NCBI RefSeq assembly: GCF_000238915.1
Contig: NZ_BAEG01000054.1
Span: 62,001 to 126,000, forward strand
Reading direction: 5' to 3'
DNA length: 64,000 nt
From: Arthrobacter globiformis NBRC 12137
Lineage (GTDB): Bacteria; Actinomycetota; Actinomycetes; Actinomycetales; Micrococcaceae
Shown here: positions 39,778 to 41,947 of the stretch, in pieces
How the letters are laid out: the number at the start of each line of letters is the position of its first letter
Numbering within the stretch: position 1 is the stretch's first letter
Program-made: the position numbers and the translations under genes
Notes under the pieces: generated by a model
Seen by the model: only the letters and a program-made list of their open reading frames with translations
The model's database searches: none
What the model was told of the DNA's origin: nothing

Positions 39778-40416
39778 TCAGATGGTGACGGCGCCTGCCG
39801 CGGTTTCGAACGTGACGGAGAGGATTCCCGGAGTGCCGTGCGGGGCCACCCAGTTCACTGCGACATCCTCAAGCGGCCGTTCGACGGGCTCGCCGAGCCA
39901 CTCGGTCACGCGCTCGGCAGAGCCCGCAATCGTGAGGCTGGACATCTTCACATTGCTGTCGTAGGCGTTGGACGGGTGCAGTCCCGGATCGCCCTCCCAC
40001 TTCAGCATGTACGGAACCTGCGGGTCCGCGATCAGGCCCAGGATGCCAATCTGCTTCCAGACCAGCTCTCGGCCGTCGGGGAACTTGCGGTTGCCGTTGA
40101 CGGCGGAGCGGCCCAGACGCTCCTCGAAGGGGGCAAGGTCGTCAACTTCGACGCACCAGCCCATCCAGCCGCCGCCCGCTGCGGACCGGGCCCGGACGGC
40201 CTGGCCGAACGGTGCCTTGTCCGACGCCGGGTGGTCCAGGACCTCAACAACCTCGAGATACTTGTGGCCTGCCAGGGGGATGATCATGTTCCGGGTTCCA
40301 AACCGGGGGTGCACTCCGCCCTTTACGGCTTCGACGCCGAGGGCAGAGGAGATACGTTCGGTGGTGGCCGCGAGGCCATCGTGTTCACAGGCGTAAGAGA
40401 CGTGATCCATGCGCAT
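39778..40416 (-). CDS. Glyoxalase-like (VOC) domain protein
   Basis: A 212-residue protein. MRMDHVSYACEHDGLAATTE and HPRFGTRNMIIPLAGHKYLEVVEVLD match the N-terminal beta-alpha-beta module of the glyoxalase-like family; the second module (about 110-205) is less regular. Metal-site candidates are His5 and the Glu in YLEVVEV. The substrate is unknown. The gene ends at a strong terminator, and an IdeR/DtxR-like box lies 37-55 nt upstream of its start, which could tie it to iron supply. Confidence 0.8.
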   Translation of the reverse strand: MRMDHVSYACEHDGLAATTERISSALGVEAVKGGVHPRFGTRNMIIPLAGHKYLEVVEVLDHPASDKAPFGQAVRARSAAGGGWMGWCVEVDDLAPFEERLGRSAVNGNRKFPDGRELVWKQIGILGLIADPQVPYMLKWEGDPGLHPSNAYDSNVKMSSLTIAGSAERVTEWLGEPVERPLEDVAVNWVAPHGTPGILSVTFETAAGAVTI

Positions 40417-40452
40417 GCCCTCATCTTGGCACTTTGTGACGGGGCTCTCAGC

Positions 40453-40471
40453 TTAGGGTTGCCTAACCTGG
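40453..40471. promoter_or_regulatory. IdeR/DtxR-like box
   Basis: TTAGGGTTGCCTAACCTGG matches the iron-box consensus TTAGGTTAGGCTAACCTAA at 14 of 19 positions. It lies between the glyoxalase-like gene (39778, - strand) and metX, closer to the former. Confidence 0.4.
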
Positions 40472-40542
40472 AGGAAAGTCCATACTTTGTCGAAGTTCGT
40501 CACAAAGCTGTGCGCGTAACAGAGCCATTCGTGCACTGATCG

Positions 40543-40561
40543 CAGGTCATGAGTGCCGGCG
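40543..40561 (+). repeat. Partial duplicate of the SAM-IV aptamer 5' strand
   Basis: CAGGTCATGAGTGCCGGCG differs by one base from the first 19 nt of the SAM-IV aptamer, CAGGTCATGAGTGCCAGCG (40645-40663). The remaining aptamer strands are not conserved after it. Confidence 0.75.
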
Positions 40562-40644
40562 AAAAAGGCCCCGGAAAAGGCCCGGGAGTCACACAGCCGT
40601 CACATTCTTCGCGCAGATGTCCGCCTGTTTCGTAAACTGGGCAA

Positions 40645-40726
40645 CAGGTCATGAGTGCCAGCGACAGCCCCGGCTTGCTGGCCGGCAACCCTCCTTCCGC
40701 GGTGGGGTGCCCCGGGTGAAGACCTG
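40645..40726 (+). promoter_or_regulatory. SAM-IV riboswitch aptamer upstream of metX
   Basis: The closing stem is CAGGTC (40645-40650) with GACCTG (40721-40726). Conserved segments are in order: GGTCATGAGTGCCAGCG, CCCGGCTTGCTGGCCGGCAA, CCCTCC, CGCGGTGGGGTGCCCCGGGT and GAAGACC. This pattern is the SAM-IV class of actinobacteria, which binds S-adenosylmethionine and lowers expression of methionine genes. The next gene is metX, the expected target. Confidence 0.88.
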
Positions 40727-40774
40727 GCCTGCCGGACAGCTGTCGGCGGGCAAGCGCGAAGAAGAGGTTTACCT

Positions 40775-41947
40775 ATGACGATTTCTGTCAGCAGCACCGA
40801 CCTTCCGGCCGCCGGGGCTCCGCACCCGACGGGTCTGGACGGCACCGTTCCCGGCGGCGCAAACCAGGACGGCACAGTCCGGTACGTCAACATTGGCGGC
40901 CTGGAGCTCGAGGCCGGAGGCTTCCTGCCGGACGTCACACTGGCCTACGAATCCTGGGGAACCCTCAACGAGGACGGCTCCAACGCCATCCTCGTTCAGC
41001 ATGCCCTCACCGGCAGCACGCACGTGACGCGGGGTGCCGGTGACGAGGAGGGCTGGTGGGAACAGTTCGCCGGGCCCGGTGCGCCGGCGGACACTGACAG
41101 GTTCTTTGTCGTTTCCATCAATATCCTGGGCGGCTGTTACGGGTCCACGGGGCCGTCGTCGGCCGCTCCGGACGGCAAACCCTGGGGTTCACGCTTTCCG
41201 CTGGTGACGCTCAGGGACTCCACCCTCGCCGAGGCCAGGCTCGCCGACCGGCTCGGCATCAGCAGCTGGCACGCCGTGGTGGGCGGATCCATGGGTGGGG
41301 CCCGCGCCCTCGAATGGGCGGTGACTTTCCCGGAGCGGGTGCGCCGCTGCGGTGTCATCTCCGTCGGTGCCAGGAGCACGGCTGAACAGATCGCCTTCGC
41401 CCAGGCGCAGACTCTTGCTATCCGGCAGGACCGCCACTTCAACGGCGGCGACTACTACGGCGGGCCGGAACCCGTGGAGGGCCTGGCGCTCGCACGGCGG
41501 ATTGCGCACATCACCTACCGGTCTGCCTACGAACTCGATTTCCGGTTCGGCAGGAACGCCCAGGCCGCCGAAGAGCCGCTGCAGGCCGACGCCCTGGCGG
41601 GCCGTGGCCGGTACCAGGTGGAGAGCTACCTCGACCACCAGGGCAGCAAGCTGGTCCGGCGCTTCGACGCCAACAGCTACATCGCCCTGACGGAAGCGCT
41701 CATGAGCCATGACGTCACCCGGGGGAGAGGGACGCTCAAGGAAACCCTGGCGCGGGCCTCCGCGGACTTCTTCGTTGCCGCCGTGGAGACGGACCGGCTG
41801 TACTTCCCCGCCCAGTCGCTGGAACTCGCCGAGGCCCTGCCCGGGGACGTGGATGTCCACATGATCGATTCGCCCATCGGCCACGACGGCTTCCTCACGG
41901 AGATCGGCCAGCTGAACGCCCAGCTCAGGGCACACCTCCTGAACTGA
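40775..41947 (+). CDS. metX: Homoserine O-acetyltransferase
   Basis: A 390-residue alpha/beta hydrolase-fold enzyme that transfers acetyl from acetyl-CoA to homoserine in methionine synthesis. ATG 40775 follows AAGAGG and the SAM-IV riboswitch; longer readings run through the aptamer. Visible are LAYESWGTLN, the INILGGCYGSTGPSS oxyanion region, the nucleophile elbow VVGGSMGGARALEW (Ser172), and the C-terminal Asp and His (YFPAQSLELAEAL, SPIGHDGFLTE). The usual neighbour metY is not adjacent; an MFS gene follows instead. Expression should fall when S-adenosylmethionine is plentiful. Confidence 0.96.
   Translation: MTISVSSTDLPAAGAPHPTGLDGTVPGGANQDGTVRYVNIGGLELEAGGFLPDVTLAYESWGTLNEDGSNAILVQHALTGSTHVTRGAGDEEGWWEQFAGPGAPADTDRFFVVSINILGGCYGSTGPSSAAPDGKPWGSRFPLVTLRDSTLAEARLADRLGISSWHAVVGGSMGGARALEWAVTFPERVRRCGVISVGARSTAEQIAFAQAQTLAIRQDRHFNGGDYYGGPEPVEGLALARRIAHITYRSAYELDFRFGRNAQAAEEPLQADALAGRGRYQVESYLDHQGSKLVRRFDANSYIALTEALMSHDVTRGRGTLKETLARASADFFVAAVETDRLYFPAQSLELAEALPGDVDVHMIDSPIGHDGFLTEIGQLNAQLRAHLLN

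Follow-up and report, generated by a model that had tools for sequence, protein, structure and literature searches.

A Probable Relic of the metY SAM-IV Leader Upstream of the metX Riboswitch in Arthrobacter globiformis

Results and Discussion

The metX gene of Arthrobacter globiformis NBRC 12137 is preceded by an intact SAM-IV riboswitch and, further upstream, by a second copy of the aptamer start. We analyzed a stretch of 64,000 nucleotides, called the window in the following, and conclude with high confidence that the upstream copy is a relic of the SAM-IV leader of a different gene, metY, which was left behind after deletion of metY. Judged from the comparison of sequences, this stump corresponds to the first ~32 nt of the metY riboswitch, and represents neither a copy of the metX riboswitch nor a native tandem. 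The stump and its flank are homologous to metY leaders, metY is missing, the −10 box of the old metY promoter is changed, and relatives carry intermediates of the loss (L198, L199, L200, L205 and L041). The features of the region are listed in Table 1.

Table 1: Features between the VOC-like gene and metX (positions are those of the window).
Feature	Position	Strand	Basis
Divergent VOC-like gene (presumed product)	39778..40416	-	Open reading frame; homologue 87.7–100% identical over the matched part in 111/111 loci
CGTCACAAAG, upstream element kept from the old metY promoter	40498..40507	+	Alignment with near relatives
−10 box of the former metY promoter, changed to TGCACT	40532..40537	+	Comparison with metY leaders
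Stump, probable start of the former metY SAM-IV leader	40543..40574	+	Identity to the metX aptamer start and to metY aptamers
Deletion junction AAAA, assigned to neither side	40575..40578	+	Alignment with near relatives
Old metY-metX spacer, then metX promoter region	40579..40646	+	Alignment; this part of the query matched in many genomes of the genus
metX −10 box TAAACT	40633..40638	+	TANNNT hexamer kept across loci
Intact metX SAM-IV aptamer	40647..40762	+	Rfam RF00634, 111.9 bits, whole model (1-116)
metX, homoserine O-acetyltransferase	40775..41947	+	NCBIfam NF001209, 444.4 bits (cut-off 331); start codon from sequence

The Repeated Aptamer Start

The segments CAGGTCATGAGTGCCGGCGA (40543-40562) and CAGGTCATGAGTGCCAGCGA (40645-40664) point in the same direction, start 102 nt apart and differ by one change. 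A sequence-only reading of this DNA had noted the near-repeat; it is real, with 19 of 20 nt identical, and it extends further than was described there, to 40574. A pattern covering both copies with up to three mismatches found two matches in the 64 kb, each with 0 mismatches. In dinucleotide shuffles the mean was 0.12 matches, even at this tolerance, and two matches were reached in one of 100 shuffles. Chance similarity of the two copies can be dismissed in view of the homology that continues into the flanks on either side, as described below.

Alignment with the metY aptamers of near relatives showed that the homology of the stump reaches 40574 (CAGGTCATGAGTGCCGGCGAAAAAGGCCCCGG) and thus covers ~32 nt instead of 19. 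Over this length the stump has three mismatches in 32 positions to the metY aptamer of each of the genomes G143, G147 and G174. It comprises the 5′ strands of P1 and P2 with the loop CCCCGG and is devoid of the 3′ strands of P1 and P2, of P3, P5 and the pseudoknot partners. The SAM-IV fold used for comparison consists of P1, P2, P3, P5, PK-1 and PK-2, as given in PMC6890682. The stump fails to provide this fold with both strands of P1 and P2, since the homology stops at ~40574; the closing and pseudoknot strands had correctly been described as missing. A covariance-model search, which had been proposed along with that description, located SAM-IV only at 40647-40762. For the upstream copy no match to the Rfam SAM-IV model was obtained up to E = 10 (gathering score 38 bits).

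metY and metX in the Genus

Loci for comparison were collected by a search over 101 genomes of the genus including that of the window, which provided stretches from 99 of the 100 others. The nearest relatives were found by a search with the intergenic region alone. The resulting set of 111 loci includes the window and 11 usable near relatives from the latter search; L207, which is without metX at a contig end, and G097 are not among them. The common gene order among the relatives is a divergent VOC-like gene, metY and metX, with metY coding for O-acetylhomoserine sulfhydrylase. The commonest arrangement in the genus sample is SAM-IV, metY, SAM-IV, metX (61 of 111 loci); in relatives of the L048 type one SAM-IV start stands before metY and another one before metX, ~1.6 kb apart. 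We take the product of the left-hand gene to be VOC-like; a match to NCBIfam was not obtained for it. In most of the genus sample metY has this gene as its neighbour on the left; the two lie within 700 nt of each other in 84 of the 91 loci with a full metY, defined by at least 425 of 441 aligned amino acids. At six further loci a metY fragment is found beside metX and at 14 none. An aptamer start precedes the full metY in 61 of the 91 loci and is not recognisable in the other 30 (e.g. L099, L108, L111 and L114-L126), where metX keeps its own. The metY switch is thus absent from more loci than metY itself.

Between the VOC-like gene and metX of the window no match to metY was found. The same holds at E ≤ 1e-180 for the entire genome of the window, a draft of 124 contigs with 99.97% completeness, whereas 172 of the 206 genomes of the genus sample contain metY at this threshold. 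The best match in the genome of the window is 44% identical and represents more distant enzymes. Other loci without metY beside metX differ in detail: two metY genes lie at other places in the genome of G016 (L058), and the VOC-like gene and metX of L065 and L127 are separated by 2.4–2.9 kb of other DNA.

Origin of the Upstream Copy

The upstream flank of the stump aligns with metY leaders all the way back to the VOC-like gene. In order to compare the flank with both kinds of leaders, profiles were derived from the 60 nt ahead of the aptamers, using 51 of the 61 metY leaders with an aptamer start (window left out) and 108 of the 110 metX leaders other than that of the window. The 60 nt before the stump scored 25.3 bits on the metY profile, and the best of 200 shuffles reached 1.5. 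The 60 nt before the real aptamer of the window scored 48.8 bits on the metX profile and were not reported with the metY profile.

If the SAM-IV leader of metX itself had been duplicated locally at its start, giving a decayed tandem, this would explain the identity of 19 of 20 nt, the direct orientation and the distance of 102 nt, and the flank of the stump does show a weak resemblance to metX leaders (3.2 bits; best of 200 shuffles 1.7). However, the flank is far closer to metY leaders, not only in its score but also in its highest identity: 0.90 among metY leaders (reached with L203) against 0.65 among metX leaders. Moreover, an aptamer followed by metY occupies exactly this place in near relatives. 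The duplication was rejected by the flank test and is almost certainly wrong; we ascribe the 3.2 bits to promoter elements common to both leaders. The sequence-only reading was right in calling the copy decayed, as what remains here is the stump of an earlier SAM-IV riboswitch. The tandem origin considered there does not hold: the copy would have belonged to metY as a separate gene and would have come close to the metX switch upon the deletion of metY.

On the other side of the junction, the spacer from ~40579 aligns with the 3′ arm of a hairpin that stands after metY in near relatives. The aptamer starts are 102 nt apart in the window and 1,579 nt apart in G174 (L203), a net difference of ~1,477 nt. 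The metY relic can accordingly be pictured as follows. The ancestor would have carried the VOC-like gene and a promoter followed by SAM-IV, metY, SAM-IV and metX, and metY would have been lost in the lineage of the window. One deletion, or several totalling ~1.48 kb, would have joined 40543-40574 to the metY-metX spacer. We infer that a relaxed need for metY came first, followed by decay of promoter and aptamer with deletions.

Stages of the Loss in Near Relatives

Near relatives cover the range from an intact to a completely lost metY unit. G143, G147 and G174 have kept the first SAM-IV (100.2, 108.4 and 108.4 bits), metY, the second SAM-IV and metX; these are the loci L202, L203 and L204 (108.4, 108.4 and 100.2 bits, in this order). 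G197 (L201) has kept metY with a weaker aptamer of 76.4 bits, in the start of which a base is missing. In G164 (L200) the upstream SAM-IV is whole (99.4 bits) and only the last codons of metY are left, as judged by eye. Two complete SAM-IV aptamers, 272 nt apart, consequently precede metX at this locus (1275-1392 and 1547-1662, the second with 108.8 bits). The upstream aptamer of G110 (L199) is reduced to positions 3-77 (56.5 bits) and is accompanied by a 3′ fragment of metY. G002 (L041) carries a longer, decayed aptamer stump that no longer scores, and G112 (L198) a stump like that of the window, shorter and with a different junction. A metY fragment without a stump is found in G111 (L205), and neither metY nor the tip in G028 and G036. 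The tip is absent from 15 of the 20 loci without a full metY. The sequence-only reading would have given up its proposal if close relatives showed no trace of the copy; five loci including the window retain the tip or more.

In a tree of VOC and metX coding DNA from 25 chosen loci of the 111, the window and G112 are sisters (100/99) and G111 branches next (100/99). The surrounding clade of 10 rows (100/100) mixes loci with and without metY, and across the 25 rows at least five changes between presence and absence of metY are required. If metY was never regained, it was lost at least two times within this clade, or three times unless G002 is the sister of G110 and G164.

Two further observations concern truncated aptamers. 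G073 (L070) has a full metY, the SAM-IV of which has been shortened to roughly its first 31 nt; only the metX SAM-IV scores at this locus. It is a parallel truncation, and a truncated 5′ aptamer end can hence arise without gene loss. Within the decayed aptamer of G002, in the gap between the VOC-like gene and metX, a 12-nt inverted repeat (CCACGAAGCGCT / AGCGCTTCGTGG) was seen by eye.

Promoters and the metX Transcript

A TANNNT hexamer stands 7–10 nt ahead of the metX aptamer in all 111 loci. From this −10 box, transcription of metX is expected to start at ~40645, i.e. at the first bases of the aptamer and downstream of the stump. Since the −10 box sits between stump and aptamer, the stump lies probably outside the metX transcript. 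As metX retains a promoter sequence of its own together with a complete SAM-IV, it should be controlled by S-adenosylmethionine, as is the case in relatives.

The old metY promoter has been altered in its −10 box. At the position of the changed box, G143, G147, G174 and G197 have TACACT, and hexamer positions 1-2 are TA in 61 of 61 metY leaders that contain an aptamer start (three by eye). These are the bases that −10 elements require. The hexamer is changed in each of the five tip-keeping loci without a full metY, to TGCACT in the window, TGCGTC in G112, TGCGCT in G110 and G164, and CACACG in G002. Thus, the stump would be silent. In relatives the element CGTCACAAAG precedes the metY aptamers at a similar spacing; it is unchanged in the window and in G112.

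The sequence-only reading had also regarded the copy as a possible alternative 5′ strand, which would pair with the P1 closing strand GACCTG and give metX a second fold. The CAGGTC of the stump does have the same sequence as the true P1 strand, and equal duplex energies were computed for the two (−10.8 kcal/mol each). The argument against such a role rests on the promoters, with the metX −10 box between stump and aptamer and the stump's own −10 box changed, and on the absence of the tip from the 15 of 20 loci mentioned above. In a pseudoknot-free model of a hypothetical long transcript (from 40537) the pairing probability of stump and GACCTG was 0.0; this is a weak test, as the true P1 reached only 0.005. 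A working alternative strand is therefore unsupported and extremely improbable. That the copy might lie outside the transcript had been named as the outcome that would speak against this proposal, and the promoter sequences make it probable.

Two other candidates from this region were discarded. A 10-nt complement between TTCTTCGCGC (40605-40614) and GCGCGAAGAA (40754-40763) renders part of the region before the metX start codon less accessible in the modelled long transcript, and was set aside because 40605-40614 belongs to the promoter region of metX and precedes the expected start of transcription. A terminator-like site on the minus strand (40587-40569) is within chance (one found, 0.5 expected, sd 0.7).

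The stump might also have been kept as DNA of a promoter or start region, for instance for a regulator of metX or of the VOC-like gene. G112 retains the tip, G073 retains the tip of its truncated aptamer before a full metY, and CGTCACAAAG has stayed unchanged in the window and in G112. On the other hand, G111, G028 and G036 have lost the tip and still possess the TANNNT box before the metX aptamer, and the old −10 box has been altered wherever the tip persists without a full metY. We consider retention for such a purpose very improbable. The stump of the metY leader is probably an evolutionary scar without function, although a single change in 20 nt relative to a working aptamer start and the kept tip of G112 agree with slow decay and with residual constraint equally well.

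Some elements of the region recur. Sequences resembling CGTCACAAAG at 40498-40507 and 40599-40604 have a like distance to the −10 boxes of metY and metX, respectively, and an inverted copy lies at 40432-40441 near the VOC-like gene; possibly they are sites of a shared regulator. TTAGGGTTGCCTAACCT (40453-40469) recurs in relatives between the VOC-like gene and metY, near the start of the former, and presumably resembles a DtxR/IdeR iron box.

Tandem Arrangements and Known Systems

Scars of gene loss with remains of promoter and leader are a general kind. The locus of the window resembles them in its conserved neighbours, the missing gene, the differing junctions and the leftover fragments in sister genomes. 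It differs in that the leftover is of the same riboswitch class as the switch of the next gene, and for this reason it imitates a tandem. With respect to SAM-IV (RF00634) before metY and metX, the letters of the stump are those of the first ~30 nt of the aptamer, at the place of the metY SAM-IV, but most strands and a covariance-model score are lacking.

A tandem in the sense of two complete aptamers in one leader is not present in the window, which contains one complete aptamer. Among 10 other genomes checked for tandems, nine of them without metY among the matches listed at E ≤ 1e-180, two complete, close aptamers were found only in G164, while G110 has one complete and one partial aptamer 380 nt apart. 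The full tandem in relatives that had been suggested as a check thus exists in G164, and the other genomes among the 10 are without it. Deletion of a gene between two riboswitches of the same class could be a route by which tandems are born, with G164 caught in that state; we consider this unlikely. If the upstream switch of G164 were still transcribed, both aptamers would control metX in series, and the window would then show how such a newborn tandem decays. Probably, the upstream switch of G164 is also on its way out, as its changed promoter box (TGCGCT) suggests. Four stretches with two SAM-IV starts 74–104 nt apart, from a Mycobacterium MAG (twice), a beta-proteobacterial MAG and Paenibacillus, were dropped since none exceeded the Rfam gathering score; they come from a scan of named genomes that may omit the near relatives of the window.

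Singleton glycine riboswitches are accompanied by ghost aptamers, in which a second aptamer has degraded next to a functional one; many of them derive from true tandems in one leader and keep a scaffold role, according to PMC6944388. The stump is likewise a degraded aptamer beside a working one. In contrast to the ghost aptamers as portrayed there, it stems from the switch of another gene, lacks the strands to fold and probably precedes the point at which metX transcription starts. Missed open reading frames can create false tandems, as a review on tandem riboswitches warns (PMC9481103); in the accessible portion of this review SAM-IV occurs once, in the reference list. Among the matches listed in the open literature searched, no title or abstract opening dealt with SAM-IV relics or SAM-IV tandems, and the combination of SAM-IV with Arthrobacter gave no match there.

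The analysis removes a false lead, as nothing speaks for an additional SAM-IV fold in the leader of metX, and illustrates that a gene-loss scar can mimic a tandem riboswitch in raw sequence. The upstream copy itself is in all likelihood an ordinary scar of gene loss; wider interest attaches to the state of G164. The close relatives represent a fairly complete series of riboswitch decay, which is useful for the study of promoter and aptamer erosion after gene loss.

Further SAM-IV aptamers were observed upstream of other genes at L001, L003 and L004, which belong to the same genome. The genes preceded there code for a SufS-like cysteine desulfurase (113 bits), a MetZ-like O-succinylhomoserine sulfhydrylase (92.9 bits) and a third protein (63.5 bits) that we take to be flavin-monooxygenase-like.
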